A stretch of DNA of 64,000 nt from Ascidia mentula. Its lineage: Eukaryota > Chordata > Ascidiacea > Phlebobranchia > Ascidiidae. The position numbers were made by a program, and so were the translations under genes. The notes under the pieces are model-generated. The model saw only the letters and a program-made list of their open reading frames with translations, did no database searches and was not told the DNA's origin. Each line of letters opens with the position of its first letter. The first letter of the stretch is position 1. Location of the stretch: positions 15,823,001-15,887,000 of the forward strand of contig OX387202.1 of the NCBI GenBank assembly GCA_947561715.1, in the 5' to 3' direction. Of this stretch, positions 29,936 to 59,847 are shown piece by piece.

Positions 29936-32137
29936 AAACCTTTTTTGCGTGTACTTAAAAACAAGACAAGCTTGGCAAAAAACGTTGCCTGTGGGCCATG
30001 CACAGAAAATATCGCCACTGTGGGTTCTTGTATTTACAAAAGCATGAGCCAACAACACGTACAAATAAAAACTGCCCATAGGAGGGAACAACCGTGATTA
30101 TATGGGAAGAGAAGCTAATTACAATCCAGCAATGGAATGATTAACAGGGTGCGAAATGAAGTAATGCAGGGCACGAACAACGCTACGCTTCACCGATCAC
30201 AATCACTACTGTTTACTACATCGCTACTGTTTATTATCCACAGCGTTTATCACCTGAAAAATGTTACGATTGGCAAATCGCTAAAGAACTCTCATGTTTC
30301 AACATGCTAACAAAGCAAAGTCATAAAAATCTACAGTGACATGTCAAGAACAATTTCGTGTTATAAAGGACCTGCACACATAATTTCACGCTTCTGTCAC
30401 GGAATTATTTCCTGGTTTAAAAACGGCCCATCACCAAAACCAAAGTCTCTCACACTGAATTCACTAAATGGGCGTCTCTTTAATAAACGAACTAAAACGA
30501 TGATAAAACGTAGCACCTCTTCGCACCGGCTAATCAACCAATCAACGGTTTACACAGAAATCAATGGAGCGTTGGGACGTGGCAAACATAGAAAAACGAC
30601 TATAGTGTGAATATAAAGTGCGAGAAAAGATGGAAAACAATAGCATAGTGCGATGTGATGTGCGCATATAAGTAATAAAGAGTGATTTAAATAAACAACG
30701 CAGGTGAACAAAAAAAACATAAAGAAAAGAATTAGTGCCGTGTGTCGTTTTCGCCACACTTCCATGTAAACAAAGCATGTGACAAATAAATGAGTGACCT
30801 ACTTTTGTCGCTATTCACACTACCAGTATCGGGCCAATAATTTGCTAGTATCGGGCCAATAACACTACAAAAATACTATTAAAACGTATCATTGATTAAT
30901 GATATTTTTTTTTATTTATTCTTTTTGGTTGCCACGCTCACCGGCTGTGTAAGATGCGTTGTCACCTGAGGAACGTCTACACGACTTACAAGTGACATCT
31001 TCAAATTCACTTGTTGCATGATCTGCGACAAAATGTATGTGATGAATTAAATTCGTGTTTGAATTACTTTGAGATATCACACTAAGACAATCGACACAAG
31101 GAAGGACTATATTGATGGACCTCCTTTTAATATTGTAGGGATTAGAATCGCTACCCAATACTATAGAAATGATGGCGCCATCATCAGTGATTCAGTCCGA
31201 GTTTTCAATGAGCTGTCATTTTTTCATTTGGCCTTAGCTTTTGCAAAGTGGATGATGTCGTTTTCGTTGTGGTTATTAACAATTTTATAAAGCATGTAAA
31301 CCCTTAAATGAGTAATTTGTGCATGATAAAAATTGAAACGTCATCGATGACCGCGATGAGTCATACAATGCAGAGGAACGTGGGTTCGATACTGATTTCC
31401 GTCAAGCTATTACACCACCGCATTTGCTTAATCTCCTCAACTTGTTGCTTTAGCCAACGTGTACCACACAAGCAAATCCAATGTTAACAGCGTTGTCCGT
31501 AACTCATCATTCTGACCACTAACATTGCCCAAATGACAGCAAAGTAATTACATGACCATTTAGCTGACAAGATCGTTATTAGTCACACCCAAGTTTCACT
31601 CTAAATGTTTACAGAACCTAAGAATGACAGAATTCATCATACATATTCCCGAATAAGGCGCCGCGACGCACTGGTTCAACAATATTGCTGAAGCGTCACT
31701 GCCGTAACATAGCATTGCTCGTGCAAAAACATGCTTATTATTTAAAGGTGGACACCGAGGGAGTAAAACGTCCCGACATCGCTGCCTTTAGGATCACACC
31801 TCATTTTGATGGCTTGATTATAATAAAAACATTAATATTTTTAATATAGTCATATTGCATTTAAACAATATGCAACAAGCAATTTGTATGAAGAAAGATT
31901 GTATATTTCCCACACCGTCATGTGCATATATCGCAGCCACACACAACAAAATTGCGTCATTTCCGACTCGCACAGTTTTGACAAAGGTGATTTAAAGCAA
32001 TAACAGATTTGGTAATTCCATCGGTCTAATGGTGATTTCTCAGGCTTTGTGCAGCATTTCGTTTTTAATCGCTTTTTCCACTTCACAAGTAAGTGAACAC
32101 GAAATAGCATTCTTCACGTAGTCTCAATATAATAAAC

Positions 32138-33657: not shown

Positions 33658-36600
33658 ATGGATGCAGGATCGTCTATGACGTCAAAGGGTGGAAACGAAC
33701 ATGAAGAAATTATGTCAACAGACCAAATGATGACAAGTAAGTTGGTTTAACGTGGTATCAACGCTTGGTGTCGTCTTCTGTTTATTTCCCAAAGTTATAT
33801 AAAAATGTTGATGCGAACAGAGATTGTAAACGGGGTTATTCTGCACGATTAAAGAAAGTCCTAATTTATTTAGAAAAATATCAACAAAGGAAAACGTCAA
33901 TCATATTTATCATTACGCATGGTCACCTTGGTGGCACGGAGTATACTCTTTTAATGAAAAAAAAGCGTTTTTGAATTATATCATTTAAAATAAACGTGCT
34001 GCTTCCTTTGAAATACAACGAATATTACCTCCGTTGCTTAGACCACTCGTTTAACAAAGCTGGCCCACGTTGTTAATATTTTGCAACTTTACATCGCATG
34101 TAAGACTGGGGTTTCGTACCGATGGGTTTGTCACAAACTGCAACGGTGGCTCCAAACCATATGTTCTCTTTCAATAAACAGACGTTGTTACAAAATATTT
34201 AGTGACTTTTTTCTCTAAGGTGTTACAAGCGATTACAGTGAAAGTGGGGTTGATGAAACTTGGTTTCGATATGATGTTAATGACACGGGGAAACTTGGAA
34301 AATTCTTCATCTTTAATCAGGTAACTGGAGTAATGACGGAAAAGTTTGGATAACGACACATATTTTAAACATCAAGAAAATAAAACTAAACTTTACTAAA
34401 CATCTTTAAAATCTTGTTCTGCCAGACTTTTGCGAACATGTTCCATTCAAGAAGAGTTGGAACAGAACAGGACGAAGAAAAACTAGCCAGGATTGCCACA
34501 GCTTTAAATTTTGATGTTGTAACATTCAAAGATAAAACAACCGATGAAACATTCGAAATACTGAAAAGCTGTCAGTAACTTTTTGGGTATTTGTATTAAC
34601 TTCCTGTTTGTTTGACAAACGTTTGTATGTTTAGTTTCTGAAACATATCACAATGAGAGCTTCTCGTGTTTTGCGTGTGCGTTATTTTCTCACGGAAGGA
34701 TAAATAACGGATTTCAGGAGATTGCAGCATACCGCCTTGAGTCGGGAGGTCGAAGAGTCATCGACTATTTTAAACTTGAAGATGCGTTGATGTGTTTTAC
34801 GGATAATAACTGTAAATGTCTATCCGGAAAACCCAAACTTTTTTTTATACAGGTGACATTATCAAGTTTATAATTTTAATATGAGATACTAATTTACTGG
34901 TATATTCATGATTTTAATGAATGGGCACTTTTCACGTGCGTAATAGTTGCGTTAGCTTGTAACTTAATGGACCAGCAAAAAATGCTGTGTTAAAATTCCT
35001 TTGTTGCTTTAGGCGTGCAGGAACACAGAAGAAATTTTAACGCAAGAGGCATTCGAAACACCTGATTTAGATGACGTAAAGGTATTGTCCGTTGCACCAG
35101 AGGCCCATTTCTTCGTTGCACAATCAACACTTCCAGGTCACTGTTTTGTTTAACTGTATATCACACTGTGTATTCATACTGCCCATCCCACTTTTTTACA
35201 GAAAGCGTATCATTTCGCCACACAAGATCTGGATCTTTTTTCATACAATCTTTGTGCAAAACATTTGGAAAATTCTTGGAGAAGAATAAAAAATTTACTC
35301 CCGAAGAGGTGCAAAACAGAACGTTTGTGCAACCGAAAAACAAATATTAATCTAAACCAAATGATAATACAGATAAATTTGTTTGTCTAGCTAATTGGTA
35401 AAATCAAAACATGTTTGTATTTCAAACTTGCTTTTTGCCTCAGGTGTTATGTCACACGAACGCCATTATGGAAGTGAAGAAGGAACAAAAAATTGTAAAG
35501 TCAATTGAAGGGAAACAGTGTAAGCTTAGAATGAAACAACTGGCACCATTTACATCTCAGTTGACAAAAGACTTTTACTTTGGGTAATCATTTTTAATTG
35601 CGTACGGCTTTAAATAAACAAAACAAAATGGATTATATGATAGGACTATGTTAAATAATTTTTGCAGAAATGAGCATGAAAAAAAAGAAGAAGAACGGGG
35701 TTTCATTGGTACCAGCAGTATTGAAAAGCACGAGACGAATTTCAGCAGTCTTAAAAAGCACGAAACAAATTCCAATTCATTTGTAATTTTTTGCTCTGAG
35801 GCAAGAGTTTCTAAAATTGTATTGTCTTTTTAATCATATTTTTGATGTATGTACTGCATTTGCAAGCTGCAGATTAAATACAATTGCGTTTTTACAGGGA
35901 TACGCAGAGGCTTATGGTTATTTAGACCAAACTAATTTGTCCAACACAGCGAGAAAGATGGGATTTGTTGCCAGTGAATTTTGTTACAAAGATAAAAAAT
36001 GTCTGTTTCAACAAATAGAAACATGTAGGTGATAAATATGTTGCATAATTATTTATGTATGGAAAACAATTCAAAACAAAACTTTTAGATTTTAGCATAA
36101 CGAAGCACGAAAACAGCAGCATATTTCTCTTTGCTTTGCTCTCCACCCACGAAGGTAATGCCTTTGACAATGAATGGGAAGACGATCCTACAATTGGGGA
36201 ACTGCTGAGTGCATTTTCCACTAAGAATCGCCCTCAATTAAAAGATGTTCCAAAACTGTTTTTTTTGCAGGTTCGTTTTTGCGGGGTTAAAACAAGCAAA
36301 AACTAAAAATGTAATTTAAGGTTGCTAATCCAACTGCGATCGACGATGGAAACCCAGATGAGAATAAATTTCCTTCCCCTCCTTCTAGTAACCCATATGC
36401 TGATATGCTGATTGTTCATTCACGTTCCAGTGAGCAGAAGTGAGCTTTTTCGCGATAAACATTTTAATAAATGTTTTATTATTAATGCTAGAGAGTTATT
36501 ACAACTTGCAAGACAATGGTTGTATGTCCTTGTTTGTGAACAGCTTGTGCGATTGCCTTCTTCAATATCAAGACCAGTTGGACATCATGCACGTAAGATA

Positions 36601-37050
36601 TCAAATCAATGTATTGCACTTATAGAAGCTTTAAAAAAGATTTTCATACCTCCATAAATGGTTAAAGTTGTTTTTGATAGTGCGCCAAAGAACAATGTTG
36701 AATAGGCCTGAAGTTAAGAAAGTAATATGTCAAAACGCCAGTTTTCTCTGTCGTGTATGTATGTATTGTCCTTTTACATCATAAAATATAACTATATATG
36801 TGAAACTAGGCAAATTAATATTCAGGAGAAAAAGAGTAAGTAATAAAGTTCCAGACCATCGCACAGCAAGGTCACCAAACTTAGGTTGACAAAAACACGT
36901 TTATAGTAAAAAACTGGGCATATCACTGTTTTGCAGATAATGAGGCGGGTAAACTACAGAATGACAAAAGTGGATCTACATAACATGGCCTTGGTAACAT
37001 CGCATCTCAGTCAGTCGATAACCTTGGCTACAAAACCGAAGATTGAATGA
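33658..37050 (+). CDS. Tandem caspase-pseudocaspase protein, copy A
   Basis: Thirteen GT-AG exons: 33658-33736, 34220-34320, 34426-34570, 34635-34852, 35013-35136, 35202-35308, 35444-35583, 35668-35806, 35898-36024, 36089-36270, 36321-36429, 36492-36592, 36937-37050; 561 aa. Domain 1 (about 45-305) is a caspase with no visible CARD or DED: pocket Arg near R70 (RRVGT), catalytic His128 (FSHG), Cys183 (QACRN), R228 (SFRHTRSGSFFIQSL), end LTKDFYFG. Domain 2 (about 306-561) follows the same order but lacks the catalytic set: T413 at the His position (LLSTHEG), A456 at the Cys position (QVAN), Q497 at the pocket Arg. It is therefore a pseudocaspase. Caspases are dimeric cysteine proteases of apoptosis and immunity; here the partners would be covalently linked. 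ATTAAA at 37088-37093 may be the poly(A) signal. Exons 6 and 8 have weak donors (GTGCAA, GTTTCT). Confidence 0.82.
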
Positions 37051-40425: not shown

Positions 40426-43400
40426 ATGGATGCAGGATCGTCTATGACGTCAAAGGGTGGAAACGAACATGAAGCAATTATGTCAACAGACCAAATGATG
40501 ACAAGTAAGTTGGTTTAACGTGGTATCAACGCTTGGCGTCGTCTTCTGTTTATTTCCCAAAGTTATATAAAAATGTTGATGTGACCAGAGATTGTAAATG
40601 TGGTTATTCTGCACGATTAAAGAAAGTCCTAATTTATTTCGAAAAATACCGAAAATGAAAAACGGCAATCATATTTATCATTACGCATGGTCACCTTGGT
40701 GGCACCGAGTATACACTATTAATGAAGAAAAAACGTTTTTGAATTATATTTTTTTAAATAAACGGGTTGCTTTTTTGAAATACAACGAATATTACCTCCG
40801 TTGCTTAGACCACTCGTTTAAAAAAGCGGGCCCACGTTGTTAATATTTTGCAATTTTACGTCGTATGTAGGACTGTTTGTCAGAAACTGCAACGTTGGCT
40901 CCTAACCATATGTTCTCTTCCAATAAACAGACGCTGTTACAATGTGTTTAGTGACTTTTTTTCTCTAAGGTGTTACAAGCGATTACAGTGAAAGTGGGGT
41001 TGATGAAACTTGGTTTCGATATGATGTTAATGACACGGGGAAACTTGGAAAATTCTTCATCTTTAATCAGGTAATTGATAACTGAAGAAATGACGGAAAA
41101 GTTTTGATAATGACAGACATTTTAAACATCAAAAAAATTAAGTCTTGTTCTACCAGACTTTTGAGAACACATCCGTTGATGAAAGACGTGGAACAAACCG
41201 GGACGAAGAAAACATAGCCAGGATTGCCACAGCCTTAAATTTTGATGTCGAAACATTTAAAGATAAAACAACCGATGAAACACTCGAAATACTGAAAAAC
41301 TGTCAGTATCTTTTTTGAGATTTCCAAATCTCTATGGCGTTTGTGTTAACTTCCTCTTGTTTTTAACAAACGTTTGTATGTTTAGTTTCTGAAAACTATA
41401 AAGATGAGAGCTTCTCGTGTTTTGCGTGTGCGTTTTTTTCCCACGGAAGAACAAAAGAAGGATGTCAGGAGATTGCAGCATACCGCCTTGAGTCGGGAGG
41501 TCGAAGAGTCATCGACTATTTTAAACTTGAAGATGTGTTGAAGTGTTTTACGGAAAAAAAATGCAAATGTCTATCCGGAAAACCAAAACTTTTTTTTATA
41601 CAGGTGACATTATGAAGTTCATAATTTTAATATAAGATAATAATTTACTGGAATATTCATGATTTTAATGAACGGGCACTTTTCACGTGCGTAATAGTTG
41701 CGTTAGCTTGTAACTTAATGGACCAGCAAAAAATGCTGTGTTAAAATTCCTTTGTTGCTTTAGGCGTGCAGGAACACAGAAGAAATTTTAACGCAAGAGG
41801 CATTCGAAACACCTGATTTAGATGACGTAAAGGTATTGTCCGTTGCACCAGAGGCCCATTTCTTCGTTGCACAATCAACACTTCCAGGTTACTGTTTTGT
41901 TTAACTGTATATCACACTGTGTATTCATATTGGCCATCACACTTTTTACAGAAAGCGTAGCATTTCGCCACACAAGATCTGGATCTTTTTTCATACAATC
42001 TTTGTACGAATCATTTGGAAAATTCTTGGAGAAGAACCAAAAATTTACTCCCGAAGAGGTGCAAAACAAATGTTTGCGCAACCAAAAAACAAATATTGAT
42101 CTAAAGCAAATCATAATACCGTTCATCGTGTTTGTCTAGCGTATTGGTAAATCAAAGCATGTTTGTATTTCAAACTTGCCTTTGCCATAGGTCTTATGTG
42201 ACACGAACGCCATTATGTCCCTGACGGCACAAAAAGATGTGAAGACAATAGAAAATAAAAACTATCCGTTTACAATGACACAACTGGCACCATTTACATC
42301 TCAGTTGACAAAAGACTTTTACTTTGGGTAATCATTTTTATTTGCTTACGTACTAAGTAAACAAAACAAACGAAATTTGTAAAATAGATTATAAGCACTA
42401 TGTTAACTTTTGCAGAAATGAGCATGAAAAAAAGGAAGAAGAAGAACGGGGTTTCATTGGTACCAGCAGTATTGAAAAGCGCGAGACGAATTTCAGCAGT
42501 CTTAAAAAGCACGAAACAAACTCCAATTCATTTTTAATTTTTTGCTCTGAGGCAAGAGTTTCTAAAATTGTATTGTCTTTTTAATCATATTTTTGATGTA
42601 TATACTGCATTTGCAAGCTGCAGATTAAATACAATTGCCTTTTTACAGGAATACGCAGAGGCTTATGGTAAATTAGACCAAAATTATTTGTCCAACACAG
42701 CGAGAAAGATGGGATTTGTTCCCAGTGAATTTTGTTACAAAGATAAAAAATGTCTGTTTCAACAAATAGAAACATGTAAGTGATAAATATGTTGCATAAT
42801 TATTTATGCATGGAAAACAATTCAAAAGAAAACTTTTAGATTTTAGCACTACGAAGCACGAAAACAGCAGCATATTTCTCTTTGCTTTGCTCTCCACCCA
42901 CGAAGGTAATGCCTTGAACAATGAATGGGAATACGATCCTACAATTGGGGAACTGCTGGGTGCATTTTCTACTAAGAATCGCCCTCAATTAAAAGATGTT
43001 CCAAAACTCTTCTTTTTGCAGGTGCGTTTTTGCGGGGTTAAAACATAAAAAAACTAAAAATGTAATTTAAGGTTGCTAATCCAACTGCGATCGACAATGG
43101 AAACCCACATGAGAATAAATGCTCTGGCCTTCCTTCTAGTAACCCGTATGCTGATATGCTGGTTGTTCATTCACGTTCCAGTGAGCAGAAGTGAGCTTTT
43201 TCGCGATAAACATTTTAATAAATGTTTTATTATTAATGCTAGAGAGTTATTACAACTTGCAAGACAATGGTTGTATGTCCATTTTTGTGAACATCTTGTG
43301 CGAATGCCTTCTTGAATATCAAGACCAGTTGGACATCATGCACGTAAGATATCAAATCAATGTATTGAACTTATAGAAGCTTTAAAAAAGATTTTCATAC

Positions 43401-43802
43401 CTCCATAAATGGTTAAAAGTGTTTTTGATAGTGCGCCAAAGAACAATGTTGAATAGGCCTGGAGTTAAGAAAGTAATATATCAAAACGTCAATTTTGCCT
43501 GTCGTGTATGTATTCATTGTATTTACGCCATAGAATAAAACTATATATGCGAAACTAGGCAAATTATTGTTCATGAGTAAAAGAGTAAGTAATAAAGTTC
43601 CAGACCATCGTACAGCAAGGTCACCAAACTTGGGTTGATAAAAACACGTTTATAGTAAAAAAAATTTAGGCATATTACTGTTTTGTAGATAATGAGGCGG
43701 GTGAACTACACATTGACAAAACTGAATCCACATAACATGGCCTTGGTAACATCGCAACTCAGACAGTCGATAACCTTGGCTACAAAACCGAAGATTGAAT
43801 GA
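40426..43802 (+). CDS. Tandem caspase-pseudocaspase protein, copy B
   Basis: Thirteen exons: 40426-40504, 40970-41070, 41157-41301, 41386-41603, 41764-41887, 41952-42058, 42191-42327, 42416-42557, 42649-42775, 42840-43021, 43072-43180, 43243-43343, 43689-43802; 561 aa with every frame open. Domain 1 keeps pocket Arg (ERRGTN), His128 (FFSHG) and Cys183 (QACRN), with SVAFRHTRSG in the small subunit and a Cys-to-Tyr change in FIQSLYESF. Domain 2 is inactive in the same way as copy A (LLSTHEG, QVAN). The pocket-loop exon 3 (NTSVDERRGTNRDEEN) is of the type shared with copy C, not A or D. The exon 7 tail (VLCDTNAIMSL) is shared with C and D. The 3' half is nearly identical to copy D. ATTAAA lies at 43840-43845. 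Confidence 0.82.
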
Positions 43803-48222: not shown

Positions 48223-51200
48223 ATGGATGCAGGATCGTCTATGACGTCAAAGGGTGGTAACGAACATGAAGAAATTATGTCAACAGACCAAATGATGACA
48301 AGTAAGTTGGTTTAACGTGGTATCAACGCTTGGCGTCGTCTTCTGTTTATTTTCCAAAGTTATATAAAAATGTTGATGCGAACAGAGATTGTAAACGGGG
48401 TTATTCTGCACGATTAAAGAAAGTCCTAATTTATTTAGAAAAATATCAACAAAGGAAAACGTCAATCATATTTATCATTACGCATGATCACCTTGGTGGC
48501 ACGGAGTATACTCTTTTAATGAAAAAAAAGCGTTTTTGAATTATATAATTTAAAATAAACGTGCTGCTTCCTTTGAAATACAACGAATATTACCTCCGTT
48601 GCTTAGACCACTCTTTTAACAAAGCGGGTCCACGTTGTCAATATTTTGCAATTTTACGTCGTATGTGTGACTTTTTTCTTTAAGGTGATACAAGCGATTA
48701 CAGTGAAAGCGCGGGCGTTGATGAACCTTGGTTTCGATATAATGTTAATGACTCGGGGAAACTTGGAAAATTCTTCATCTTTAATCAAGTAATTGATATG
48801 CTGAAAAAAAGGACGCGAAAAGTTTTGATAACGACAGAAATTTTAAACATCAAGAAAATAAAACTAAACTTTACTAAACATCTTTTAAGTCTTGTTCTAC
48901 CAGACTTTTGCGAACACATCCGTTGAAGAAAGACGTGGAACAAACAAGGACGAAGAAAACTTAGCCAGGATTGCCACAGCTTTAAATTTTGATGTTGAAA
49001 CATTTAAAGATAAAACAACCGATGAAACATTCGAAATACTGAAAAACTGTCAGTATCTTTTTAGAGATTTGCAAATATCTATGGTATTTTCATTACCTTC
49101 CTGTTTGTCTGACAAACGTTTGTATGTTTAGTTTCTGAAAACTATAAAGATGAGAGCTTCTCGTGTTTTGCGTGTGCGTTTTTTTCCTACGGAAGAACAA
49201 AAAAAGGATGTCAGGAGATTGCAGCATACCGCCTTGAGTCGGGAGGTCGAAGAGTCATGGACTATTTTAAACTCGAAGATGTGCTGATGTGTTTTACGGA
49301 AAATAACTGCAAATGTCTATCCGGAAAACCCAAACTTTTTTTTATACAGGTGACAATATCAAGTTCATAATTTTAATGTAAGAAAATAATTTACTAGAAT
49401 ATTTATGCAGACACTGACCAAAAGCGACATAAAACTTTTAATGAACGGGCACTTTTCACGCGCGTAATACTTGCGTTAGCTAGTAACTTAATGGACCAGC
49501 AAAAAATGCTGTGTCAAAATACCTTTATTGCTTTAGGCGGGCAGGAACACAAAAAAGATTAAAACGCAGGAGACAATGGAAACACCTGATTTAGATGACG
49601 TAAAGGTATTGTCTGTTGCACCAGAGGCCCATTTCTTCGTTGCACAATCAACACTTCCAGGTCACTGTTTTGTTTAACTGTATATCACACTGTGTATTCA
49701 TACTGCCCATCCCACTTTTTTACAGAAAGCGTATCATTTCGCTACACAAGATCTGGATCTTTTTTCATAAAAACTTTGTGCGAAACATTTGGAAAATTCT
49801 TGGAGAAGAACCAAAAATTTACACCCGAAGAGGTGCAAAACAGAACGTTTGTGCAACCCAAAAAGAAATATTGATCTAAACCAAATCATAATACCGATCA
49901 TCGTGTTTGTCTAGCGTATTGGTAAAATCAAAGCATGTTTGTATTTCAAACTTGCCTTTGCCTCAGGTCTTATGCGACACGAACGCCATTATGTCCCTGA
50001 CGGAACAACAATATGTGAAGACAATAGAAAATAAAAACTATCGGTTTACAATGACACAACTGGCACCATTTACATCTCAGTTGACAAAAGACTTTTACTT
50101 TGGGTAATAATTGTTTTTTTGCTTACGTACTAAGTAAACAAAACAAACGAATTAATCGGAATTGCTCTTCTGGCACTTAGTTTCTAAAGTGTTTATTTTG
50201 TTGTATGGGTCTCATGCCTTAAGAATGGCTCGAAGGTTTGTGCGACTCAATTTTGGCGTCGCAAGCAGCAATCCAATAAACACTTTAGAAACTAAGTGCC
50301 AGAAGAGCAATTCCGATTAATTAGTGTGTCTGGCAACAAAAATAGCAGTATATGGAAAACAAACGAAATTTGTAAAATAGGTTATAAGGACTATGTTAAT
50401 TTTTGCAGAAATGAGCATGAAAAAAAGGAAGAAGAAGAACGGGGTTTCATTGGTACCAGCAGTATTGAAAAGCACGAAACAAATTCCAATTCATTTTTAA
50501 TTTTTTGCTCTGAGGCAAGAGTTTCTAAAATTGTGTTGTCTTTTTAATCATATTTTTGATGTATGTACAGCATTTGCAAGCTGCAGATTAAATACAATTG
50601 CGTTTTTACAGCAATACGAAATGGCTTATGGTAAATTAGACCAAACTAATTTGTCCAACACAGCGAGAAAGATGGGATTTGTTCCCAGTGAATTTTGTTA
50701 CAAAGATAAAAAATGTCTATTTCAACAAATAGAAACATGTAAGTGATAAATATGTTACATAATTATTTATGTATGGAAAACAATATAAAAACAAAAATTT
50801 AGTTTTTAGCACAACAAACCACAAAAACAGCAGCATATTTCTCTTTGCTTTGCTCTCCACCCACGAAGGTAATGCTTTTAACAATGAATGGGAATACGAT
50901 CCTACAATTGGGGAACTGCTGGGTGCATTTTCTACTAAGAACCGCCCTCAATTAAAAGATGTTCCAAAACTGTTCTTTTTGCAGGTGCGTTTTTGCGGGG
51001 TTAAAACATTAAAAAACTAAAAATGTAATTTAAGGTTGCTAATCCAACTGCGATCGACGATGGAAACCCAGATGAGAATAAATTTCCTTCCCCTCCTTCT
51101 AGTAACCCATATGCTGATATGCTGGTTGTTCATTCACGTTCCAGTGAGCAGAAGTGAGCTTTTTCGCGATAAACATTTTAATAAATGTTTTATTATTAAT

Positions 51201-51764
51201 GCTAGAGAGTTATTACAACTTGCAAGACAATGGTTGTATGTCCTTGTTTGTGAGCAGCTTGTGCGATTGCCTTCTTGAATATCAAGACCAGTTGGACATC
51301 ATGCACGTAAGATATCAAATCAATGTATTGAACTTATAGAAGCTTTAAAAAAGATTTTCGTATCTCCATAAATGGTTAAAAGTGTTTTTGATAGTGCGCC
51401 AAAGAACAATGTTGAATGGGCCTGGAGTTAAGAAAGTAATTTTTCAAATCGCCAATTTTCCCTGTCGTGTATGTATTCATTGTATTTACGCCATAGAATA
51501 AAACTATATATGCGAAACTAGGCAAATTAATATTCATGAGAAAAAGAGTAAGTAATAAAGTTCCAAACCATCGTACAACAAGGTCACCAAACTTGGGTTG
51601 ATAAAAACACGTTTATAGCAAACAATTTTAGGCATATTACTGTTTTGTAGATAATGAGGCGGGTGAACTACACATTGACAAAACTGAATCCACATAACAT
51701 GGCCTTGGTAACATCGCAACTCAGACAGTGGATAACCCTGGCTACAAAACCGAAGATTGAATGA
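48223..51764 (+). CDS. Tandem caspase-homologous protein, copy C, both domains catalytically dead
   Basis: Thirteen exons: 48223-48301, 48685-48788, 48904-49048, 49132-49349, 49537-49660, 49726-49832, 49967-50103, 50409-50520, 50612-50738, 50803-50984, 51035-51143, 51206-51306, 51651-51764; 552 aa and no frameshift or stop. The catalytic His of domain 1 is Tyr129 (FFSYGRT, codon TAC) and the catalytic Cys is Gly184 (QAGRN, codon GGC); A, B and D have CAC and TGC/TGT. The pocket Arg residues remain (ERRGTN, SFRYTRSG). Domain 2 is inactive as in the others. Exon 8 is 30 nt shorter than in B and D, removing one of two KHETN-like linker repeats. Intron 7 carries a fold-back insertion. It could be a decoy or regulatory pseudoenzyme, or a young pseudogene not yet broken. 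ATTAAA is at 51802-51807. Confidence 0.78.
50150..50322. mobile_element. Fold-back (snap-back) insertion with perfect 48-bp inverted arms, unique to copy C
   Basis: Arms 50150-50197 and 50275-50322 are exact reverse complements over 48 bp (starting AATTAATCGGAATTGCTC), separated by a 77-bp loop. Units B and D have no such sequence at this site. AAAACAAACGAA occurs at 50140-50151 and again at 50356-50367, so the whole insertion (50152-50367) is bracketed by a 12-bp duplication, with 33-34 extra bases after the second arm. It lies in caspase intron 7 and enlarges it from about 88 to 305 nt. It behaves like a MITE or fold-back element; the superfamily was not recognised. Confidence 0.75.
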
Positions 51765-56496: not shown

Positions 56497-59400
56497 ATGG
56501 ATGCAGGATCGTCTATGACGTCAAAGGGTGGAAACGAACATGAAGCAATTATGTCAACAGACCAAATGATGACAAGTAAGTTGGTTTAACGTGGTATCAA
56601 CGCTTGGCGTCGTCTTCTGTTTATTTCCCAAACTTATATAAAAATGTTGATGTGACCAGAGATTGTTAATGGGGTTATTCTGCACGATTAAAGAAAGTCC
56701 TAATTTATTTAGAAAAATACCGAAAATGAAAAACGGCAATCATATTTATCATTACGCATGATCACCTTGGTGGCACGGAGTATACTCTTTTTATGAAGTT
56801 GCTTAGACCACTGGTTTAAAAAAGCGGGCCCACGTTGTTAATGTTTTGTAATTTTACGTCGTATGTAGGACTGAGGTTTCGTACCGATGGGTTTGTCACA
56901 AACTGCAACGGTGGCTCCTAACCATATGTTCTCTTTCAATAAACAGACGCTGTTACAAAATACTTAGCGACTTTTTTTCTCTAAGGTATTACAAGCGATT
57001 ACAGTGAAAGCGCGGGCGTTGATGAAACTTGGTTTCGATACAAAGTTAATGACTCGGGGAAACTTGGAAAATTCTTCATCTTTAATCAGGTAATGGATAA
57101 CTGGTGTAATGACGCGAAAGTTTTGATAAAGAAAGACATTTTAAACAACAAGGAAATAAAACTAAACTTTACTAAACATCTTTTAAGTCTTGTTCTTCTA
57201 GACTTTTGCGAACATGCTCAGTTCAACAAGAGTTGGAACAGAACAGGACGAAGAAAACTTAGCCAGCATTGCCACAGCTTTAAATTTTGATGTTGAAACA
57301 TTCAAAGATAAAACAATCGATGAAACATTCAAAATACTGAAAAGCTGTCAGTAACTTTTTAGAGAATTTAGCAAATCTCCATGGTATTTGTATAAACTTC
57401 CTGTTTGTTTGACAAACGTTTGTATGTTTAGTTTCTGAAAACTATAAAGATGAGAACTTCTCGTGTTTTGCGTGTGCGTTTTTTTCCCACGGAAGAACAA
57501 AAGAAGGATGTCAGGAGATTGCAGCATACCGCCTTGAGTCGGGAGGTCGAAGAGTCATCGACTATTTTAAACTTGCAAATGTGTTGAAGTGTTTTACGGA
57601 TAATACCTGCAAATGTCTATCCGGAAAACCAAAACTTTTTTTTATACAGGTGACATTATGAAGTTCATAATTTTAATATAAGATAATAATTTACTGGAAT
57701 ATTCATGATTTTAATGAATGGGCACTTTTTACGTGCGTAATAGTTGCGTTAGCTGGTAGCTCAATGGGCCATTAACAAATGCTGTGTTAAATTTTCTTTA
57801 TTGCTTTAGGCGTGTAGAAACACAAAAGAAATTAAAACGCAAGAGGCATTTGAAACACCTGATTTAGATGACGTAAAGGTATTGTCCGTTGCACCAGAGG
57901 CCCATTTCTTCGTTGCACAATCAACACTTCCAGGTTACTGTTTTGTTTAACTGTATATCACACTGTGTATTCATATTGGCCATCACACTTTTTACAGAAA
58001 GCGTAGCATTTCGCCACACAAGATCTGGATCTTTTTTCATACAATCTTTGTGCGAATCATTTGGAAAATTCTTGAAGAAGAACCAAAAATTTACTCCCGA
58101 AGAGGTGCAAAACAAATGTTTGCGCAACCAAAAAACAAATATTGATCTAAACCAAATCATAATACAGTTCATCGTGTTTGTCTAGCGTATTGGTAAAATC
58201 AAAGCATGTTTGTATTTCAAACTTGCCTTTGCCTCAGGTCTTATGTGACACGAACGCCATTATGTCCCTGACGGAACAAAAAGATGTGAAGACAATAGAA
58301 AATGAAAACTGTCGGATTAAAAAGACACAATTGGCACCATATACATCTCAGTTGACAAAAGACTTTTACTTTGGGTAATCATTTTTATTTGCTTACGTAC
58401 TAAGTAAACAAAACAAACGAAATTTGTAAAATAGATTATAAGCACTATGTTAACTTTTGCAGAAATGAGCATGAAAAAAAGGAAGAAGAAGAACGGGGTT
58501 TCATTGGTACCAGCAGTATTGAAAAGCGCGAGACGAATTTCAGCAGTCTTAAAAAGCACGAAACAAACTCCAATTCATTTTTAATTTTTTGCTCTGAGGC
58601 AAGAGTTTCTAAAATTGTATTGTCTTTTTAATCATATTTTTGATGTATATACTGCATTTGCAAGCTGCAGATTAAATACAATTGCCTTTTTACAGGAATA
58701 CGCAAAGGCTTATGGTAAATTAGACCAAAATTATTTGTCCAACACAGCGAGAAAGATGGGATTTGTTCCCAGTGAATTTTGTTACAAAGATAAAAAATGT
58801 CTATTTCAACAAATAGAAACATGTAAGTGATAAATATGTTGCATAATTATTTATGCATGGAAAACAATTCAAAAGAAAACTTTTAGATTTTAGCACTACG
58901 AAGCACGAAAACAGCAGCATATTTCTCTTTGCTTTGCTCTCCACCCACGAAGGTAATGCCTTGAACAATGAATGGGAATACGATCCTACAATTGGGGAAC
59001 TGCTGGGTGCATTTTCTACTAAGAATCGCCCTCAATTAAAAGATGTTCCAAAACTCTTCTTTTTGCAGGTGCGTTTTTGCGGGGTTAAAACATAAAAAAA
59101 CTAAAAATGTAATTTAAGGTTGCTAATCCAACTGCGATCGACAATGGAAACCCACATGAGAATAAATGCTCTGGCCTTCCTTCTAGTAACCCGTATGCTG
59201 ATATGCTGGTTGTTCATTCACGTTCCAGTGAGCAGAAGTGAGCTTTTTCGTGATGAACATTTTAATAAATGTTTTATTATTAATGCTAGAGAGTTATTAC
59301 AACTTGCAAGACAATGGTTGTATGTCCATTTTTGTGAACATCTTGTGCGAATGCCTTCTTGAATATCAAGACCAGTTGGACATCATGCACGTAAGATATC

Positions 59401-59847
59401 ATATCAATGTATTGAACTTATAGAAGCTTAAAAAAAGATTTTCATACCTCCATAAATGGTAAAGTGTTTCCTGCCATTGCGCCAAAGAACAATGTTGAAT
59501 AGGCCTGGAGTTAAGAAAGTAATATATCAAAACGTCAATTTTGCCTGTCGTGTATGTATTCATTGTATTTACGCCATAGAATAAAACTATATATGCGAAA
59601 CTAGGCAAATTAATATTCATGAGAAAAAGAGTAAGTAATAAAGTTCCAAACCATCGTACAACAAGGTCACCAAACTTGGGTTGATAAAAACACGTTTATA
59701 GCAAACAATTTTAGGCATATTACTGTTTTGTAGATAATGAGGCGGGTGAACTACACATTGACAAAACTGAATCCACATAACATGGCCTTGGTAACATCGC
59801 AACTCATACAGTCGATAACCTTGGCTACAAAACCGAAGATTGAATGA
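56497..59847 (+). CDS. Tandem caspase-pseudocaspase protein, copy D
   Basis: Thirteen exons: 56497-56575, 56986-57089, 57202-57346, 57432-57649, 57810-57933, 57998-58104, 58238-58374, 58463-58604, 58696-58822, 58887-59068, 59119-59227, 59290-59390, 59734-59847; 562 aa, all frames open. Domain 1 has pocket Arg (STRVGTEQ), His129 (FFSHG), Cys184 (QACRN, codon TGT) and SVAFRHTRSG. Domain 2 is the shared pseudocaspase (LLSTHEG, QVAN). Exon 2 carries the extra codon seen only in C (SESAGVDE), exon 3 is of the copy A type, and exons 8-12 are nearly those of B. It is thus a mosaic. As in the other copies, the intron 7 donor overlaps an in-frame stop (GGGTAA). ATTAAA at 59885-59890 is the likely poly(A) signal. 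Confidence 0.82.

Follow-up and report, generated by a model that had tools for sequence, protein, structure and literature searches.

Caspases function as dimers (PMC12198278, partial text), and the stretch of Ascidia mentula DNA analyzed here (64,000 nucleotides, C70:15823001-15887000; the window) raises the question of whether one gene can supply both partners in a single chain. An earlier note had read positions 33658-37050 as one gene encoding an intact caspase fused to a pseudocaspase. We re-derived the exon model of this gene (gene 1) with our own spliced protein-to-DNA aligner. Gene 1 lies on the forward strand and possesses 13 exons, GT..AG introns and a single open frame of 561 amino acids that ends with TGA (Table 1). 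The coding join counts 562 codons including the stop, and no internal stop was detected. PF00656 was found in two stretches of the chain (4.1e-53 for the whole protein), and the second half (D2) by itself also matched this Pfam domain (2.4e-17). Thus, the HMM search that the earlier note had proposed for the 561-aa model detected a caspase domain in both halves, and its description of two domains in one gene was confirmed. The nearest PDB chains by sequence were caspase-7 and caspase-3 entries (best 4.8e-24), and this match covers the first half (D1). D1 and D2 of gene 1 share 23% identity, with a local score of z = 7.3 against 1000 shuffles. PF00656 was the sole Pfam domain above the cut-off in the gene 1 protein, and no DEDs were detected in it. 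c-FLIP is a separate gene with tandem DEDs before its dead caspase domain, an arrangement that gene 1 does not have. We rejected an additional D2 exon near 36680 (frame VRQRTMLNRPEV), because no acceptor suits the frame; exon 13 at 36937 fits the D1 end.

Table 1. Positions of the caspase features in the window
Feature	Position	Strand	Remark
Gene 1 exon 1	33658..33736	+	short N-terminal prodomain; present in 6/7 close copies, absent in L030
Gene 1 exon 2	34220..34320	+	D1 start
Gene 1 exon 3	34426..34570	+	D1 large subunit, S1 Arg70
Gene 1 exon 4	34635..34852	+	D1 large subunit, catalytic His128
Gene 1 exon 5	35013..35136	+	D1 catalytic Cys183 (QACRN) and inter-subunit linker
Gene 1 exon 6	35202..35308	+	D1 small subunit, S1 Arg228
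Gene 1 exon 7	35444..35583	+	D1 end (LTKDFYF), phase-2 donor
Gene 1 linker intron	35584..35667	+	donor gtaatc overlapping in-frame TAA
Gene 1 exon 8	35668..35806	+	linker and D2 first strand, in-frame Met absent
Gene 1 exon 9	35898..36024	+	D2 large subunit
Gene 1 exon 10	36089..36270	+	D2 His-loop equivalent, His lost
Gene 1 exon 11	36321..36429	+	D2 Cys-loop equivalent (QVANP), Cys lost
Gene 1 exon 12	36492..36592	+	D2 small subunit
Gene 1 exon 13	36937..37050	+	final D2 strand, by eye the beta6 equivalent; TGA stop
Gene 2	40426..43802	+	complete copy, 13 exons; D1 40970-42327, D2 42649-43802
Gene 3	48223..51764	+	complete copy, double-dead; D1 48685-50103, D2 50612-51764
Gene 4	56497..59847	+	complete copy; D1 56986-58374, D2 58696-59847
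Lone fragment	30918..31031	-	D2 last exon of g89/L031 type, 2.6 kb before gene 1

The earlier note took the locus for a single gene. This was incorrect: gene 1 belongs to a family, with three further complete tandem copies in the window (genes 2-4) and, in the assembly, 24 models on C70 and four on C71. In genes 2-4, all introns are GT..AG and each change of exon length against gene 1 is a multiple of 3. The four copies in the window are tandem units of 6.8-8.3 kb, and the non-coding parts of the units were duplicated together with the genes. When the entire 195.8 Mb assembly was searched with the Pfam caspase model, 87 matches were obtained, counted exon by exon. The region modelled, which is part of the cluster, covers 200 kb downstream of the window and 42 kb in six pieces beyond; exons were mapped with tblastn and then with the spliced aligner. 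On C70, models with D1 followed by D2 were obtained for 24 of the 28 caspase places tried, and the other four were fragments. Among the 24, g176, g238, L029a and L029b are incomplete (no D2 end was located for L029a, and L029b extends beyond its locus), and L005 lies 1.6 Mb from the main cluster (C70:14.18 Mb). On C71, all four modelled genes have D1 and then D2, with rougher models, and one D2 piece stands alone. All 11 shared introns are kept at the same place and phase in 16 of the 24 C70 models, and the C71 models match 5-8 of the 11, in both cases with an aligner guided by the gene 1 model and hence biased toward the same introns. PF00656 matched at least once in all ten representative chains, and five of five further D2s passed the Pfam cut-off alone. 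Both the double architecture and its repetition can thus be read from the DNA itself.

Further matches to D2 queries were found at C70:11.54 Mb, at three places on C2 and at the L001 caspase on C1, and one of the C2 matches lies about 1.3 kb past a genome-wide Pfam caspase match. C52, which has many caspase matches, gave one weak D2 match. Since the same queries did not recover the C71 D2s either, the near-silence on C52 is weak evidence. Several of these loci have features of their own. The C71 double caspases L036-L037 (C71:1.744-1.767 Mb), outside the main cluster, are very divergent. L001 (C1:20.29 Mb) has a 683-aa open frame with an intronless caspase part that groups with caspase-8/10/20 in the tree, and its long N-terminal part is presumably DED-like. 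g176 (C70:15.996-16.001 Mb) is broken: it lacks the first exons and the exon-5 acceptor, and its exon 7 has a stop. In L033, the frame breaks within an A-run of exon 5, which may be an assembly error. L035 (C79) is the mitochondrial contig of 19461 bases, which we take to be long for an ascidian mitochondrial genome; its COX1 is open under tables 13, 5 and 9 alike, and the conserved COX1 motifs are presumably restored only with AGA/AGG read as glycine, the ascidian code. Among the public matches listed for this COX1, Phallusia was the best at 87%, and the other named tunicates were at 73-77%, which places the animal near Phallusia within the ascidians.

The catalytic residues were then compared over the 28 models. 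D1 of gene 1 possesses the H128 and C183 dyad together with the S1 arginines R70 and R228, which bear on the Asp-specific cleavage typical of caspases. The dyad is widely retained in D1. His128 is present in 26 of the 28 models and replaced by Tyr in the other two, gene 3 and c71d. Cys183 is present in 25; gene 3 has Gly instead, and the models of g176 and L033 are broken at this place. The pentapeptide of gene 1 D1 is QACRN, which does not fit QACxG. Other members have QACRW (L032, L034 and g166) or QACRG (g73, for example), and the fifth residue is Asn or Trp instead of Gly in many of them. The D1 active site reads NTCRG or NVCRG in three of the four C71 models. In gene 3, D1 has lost both His (to Tyr) and Cys (to Gly), yet all 13 exons are open; this gene may be a decoy.

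In D2, His was not detected at the equivalent place in any of the 28 models, three of which have a gap there. Cys is kept in seven, as QAC in five models of C70 and as QVC in two of C71, and no D2 has the full dyad. With a caspase fold according to the Pfam match and the dyad lost, D2 is classified as a pseudocaspase. Since the loss of His is universal and that of Cys partial, these results suggest that His was lost first. The His of STHEGN in gene 1 D2 was considered as a catalytic residue and rejected, because the family alignment puts Thr at the canonical position and this His one residue later.

The exon phases of D1 and D2 agree at five of five places, as the earlier note had stated: phase 0 behind IFNQ/CSEAR, FFIQ/FFLQ and TPEE/DIMH, and phase 1 within the large subunit and ahead of the small one. 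When the intron places were aligned by eye, three of the five coincided and one was one codon apart; at IFNQ/CSEAR, the places are up to three residues apart. However, the phases are not specific to an internal duplication, as had been claimed, because L003 and L006 on C52, caspase loci with one detected domain, also have phases 0,1,0,1. L004, also on C52, differs from this pattern at two of four places. These phases were read with the aligner seeded from the double-caspase family. No second domain was found in L003, L004 or L006, for which only a short sequence beyond D1 was covered (about 0.6 kb in L003). Since the phases of L003 and L006 are identical to those of the family, a fusion of two neighboring caspase genes would leave an equal mark. 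The linker donor lies on the natural stop of D1, which favors a tandem gene duplication, after which a new splice would have bridged the boundary. The double domain probably arose through tandem duplication of a caspase gene, or of its caspase exons, and the joining of the two copies via a new phase-2 intron with its donor on the stop codon of the first domain. D2 would afterwards have lost the catalytic dyad, and the entire unit would have been amplified.

Alternatively, the two halves would be separate proteins, encoded by adjacent genes or by cistrons of an operon that is resolved by spliced-leader trans-splicing at acceptor 35667; such trans-splicing of operons is known in ascidians. The gap between the halves of gene 1 is just 84 bases. 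If the linker intron of gene 1 is retained, the protein stops right after D1, and among the 31 linker introns of the 28 models (two such introns in each of three models), 24 would give an immediate stop when retained. However, any phase-2 donor with GTAA or GTGA brings such a stop with it. The linker donor of gene 1 (gtaatc) and its exon-8 donor (gtttct) are of poor consensus, and several distant members have better linker donors (gtaagt, gtgagt). The first AUG past the exon-8 acceptor is in the frame of D2 in nine of the 28 models, where a separate D2 product is still conceivable. In the other 19, including gene 1, it is off the frame, which counts against a separate D2 protein. In gene 1, this AUG opens 38 codons off the frame of D2. 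No Met in the frame of D2 occurs before residue 372, which lies about 30 residues beyond the point where the first strand of D2 begins. Furthermore, 16 of the 28 models lack an in-frame Met in the linker. The joined frame itself is maintained. Although exons 7 and 8 vary in length, it runs on through the linker in 7/7 close copies, and the dN/dS of exon 8 in this frame is 0.40 (seven copies; the 21 pairs together have 37 synonymous and 67 nonsynonymous differences). In addition, the linker gap of g197 is 48 bases long, a multiple of 3, with no in-frame stop. We therefore regard separate proteins as improbable. An early-ending isoform produced by a polyadenylation signal in the linker was considered and dropped, because AATAAA occurs 8 times in 3000 bases of linker against 71 times in 41889 bases of other shared introns, which is too few.

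To what extent the copies are maintained was judged from their substitutions. Over 15 pairs, which are not independent, the dN/dS of D2 is 0.21-0.91, below that of D1 in 14 and equal to it in one. In the four deep pairs, D2 has 0.21-0.37 and D1 0.28-0.58 at dS 0.57-1.26, values near 1 at which the simple dN/dS method is rough. These estimates show that D2 has been under purifying selection between distant copies. In the seven young copies, dN/dS is 0.83 for the whole frame, 0.96 for D1 and 0.71 for D2; exons 1, 3, 6, 7, 9, 12 and 13 are above 1 and exon 10 is at 0.22. This pattern may reflect relaxed or diversifying selection, and purifying selection is not clear there. If the array were mostly decaying duplicates with no present function, the young-copy value of 0.83 would be expected, as would the broken g176, the homopolymer frame break of L033, the lost D1 dyad of gene 3 and the four further C70 places that are fragments. 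In contrast, 7/7 close copies are open across exons 2-13 at about 7% nonsynonymous difference, and the deep-pair values of D2 argue in the same direction. Thus, decay of most of the array is hardly to be expected. Among six copies, the unit diverges most in D1 including its introns (0.086; 0.063 in D2, 0.043 upstream and 0.058 downstream), as if the diversity of D1 were kept and the rest homogenized.

For the tree, 55 rows were used, including 16 of the 24 C70 models and the four C71 models. The D1s of C70 formed one group and the D2s of C70 another, each with 100/99. Both divide into matching subfamilies, as if D1 and D2 had been duplicated as a unit, and the finer branching differs. All D2s of C70 and C71 together were grouped at 87/80 and all D1s at 66/7, in a tree that carries a warning of long branches that meet.

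The earlier note knew of no described gene of this form. Such genes have been reported: caspase-X of Acropora (PMC4715348, partial text) and mammalian CASP16 (PMC12198278, partial text) are tandem active and inactive caspases, and the comparison with c-FLIP was already drawn there. Like gene 1, caspase-X has a dead and an active domain in one chain, with several paralogues and a model like c-FLIP:procaspase-8. However, its dead domain, which lost both His and Cys, comes first and the active one second, the reverse of the ascidian order, and A. millepora has four such genes. Caspase-X is also backed by cDNA and a cell assay, whereas the ascidian genes are predicted from genome sequence. In that assay, full-length caspase-X was lethal to HeLa cells, and its active domain by itself was more so. 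The available text of the same paper mentions unverified multi-caspase predictions in nr. In CASP16, described as one gene, the caspase domain was doubled by exon duplication, one half lacks the dyad and a cis dimer was proposed; its inactive prodomain is first and its active domain last, so the ascidian order is again reversed. c-FLIP(L) and caspase-8 likewise pair a dead caspase homologue with an active one, but they are two separate genes and chains with DED recruitment domains (PMC11121540, partial text).

Among the matches listed and the open PMC literature, double caspases were described in corals, mammals and a mussel, Mytilus coruscus, whose expanded caspase set includes four members with two CASc domains (PMC10967218, partial text). 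No ascidian double caspase and no described active-first one was found there. Two predicted insect proteins were among the likenesses. Anopheles darlingi LOC125958020 (P0008; 563 aa) has an intact first domain and a degenerate second one (HG to CG), in the same order as gene 1; it is an unverified mosquito gene model, and its second domain falls outside the ascidian D2 group on a long branch. Sarcophaga bullata DOY81_003040 (P0001) also has two caspase domains in a single predicted protein, but both look intact and lie near each other in the tree, and it may be a joined model. NCBIfam gave no match for either protein. Public protein searches, in which matches need shared 5-residue words, returned no named ascidian caspase. 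Urochordate caspases were reportedly treated by Weill et al. in 2005, a study cited in PMC2779465. The portions available of a Ciona paper (PMC10923776) do not mention a caspase domain, CASc or a tandem. Corals and mammals seem to have reached double caspases separately. What is new here is the active-first order, the lineage and the scale.

Caspases make their dimer contact through the last-strand region. The same contact is stated for the caspase-X model (PMC4715348, partial text). In D2, the mean pairwise identity is 0.50 in the small subunit, 0.57 in the stretch after it and 0.51 in the last strand, compared with 0.42 for the whole of D2, and the His-loop equivalent has fallen to 0.43 against 0.74 in D1. 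However, the Cys-loop equivalent of D2 (0.54) is kept like the last strand, so the pattern alone is no pointer to the dimer contact. Conservation offers mild backing for a D1:D2 contact. D2 might instead serve as an inhibitor or decoy, as a substrate-binding or localizing module, or as a D2-D2 contact that joins two D1s. Such roles would agree with the Cys-loop value, with the dampening of killing by the dead domain of caspase-X, and with the CASP16 authors, who leave intermolecular homodimers open (PMC4715348 and PMC12198278, partial texts). On the other hand, the last-strand region is above the D2 mean, and the linker appears long enough for pairing in cis. We consider a D2 that does not pair with D1 rather unlikely, although less so than separate proteins or decay.

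We favor, with a probability of roughly 0.6, an ascidian family of two-domain caspases in which D1 is a competent protease and D2 a pseudocaspase, paired in cis like caspase-8 and c-FLIP(L). The c-FLIP-like pair in one chain, which the earlier note proposed, is plausible with an active-looking D1 and a dead D2; the pairing itself we infer. If the genes are expressed and D1 is active, D2 would supply D1 with a built-in partner for dimerization, as c-FLIP(L) does for caspase-8. Each chain would then have one active site and need no second caspase molecule. D2 would set the activity or specificity of D1, in an activating or a dampening sense.

Strong amplification, together with a rapidly changing active half, hints at a role in defense. 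In the most far-reaching form, about thirty dispersed self-paired caspases, with the dead half last, would have been amplified as a unit, the active half changing fastest while the dead half is kept. With at least one double-dead decoy and a linker donor that switches between single-domain and self-paired products, they would constitute an innate-defense repertoire. This picture is speculative and probably does not hold in full. If expressed, the ascidian genes would add a further lineage, beside corals and mammals, with an active and a dead caspase in one chain, in reverse order. If the favored reading is true, a pseudocaspase partner in cis would be a recurrent answer to the dimer requirement of caspases. 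The effect of a pseudocaspase on its partner is still argued for c-FLIP and caspase-8, and a natural covalent heterodimer in about 28 divergent versions, among them the doubly dead one, would offer a direct way to test it.
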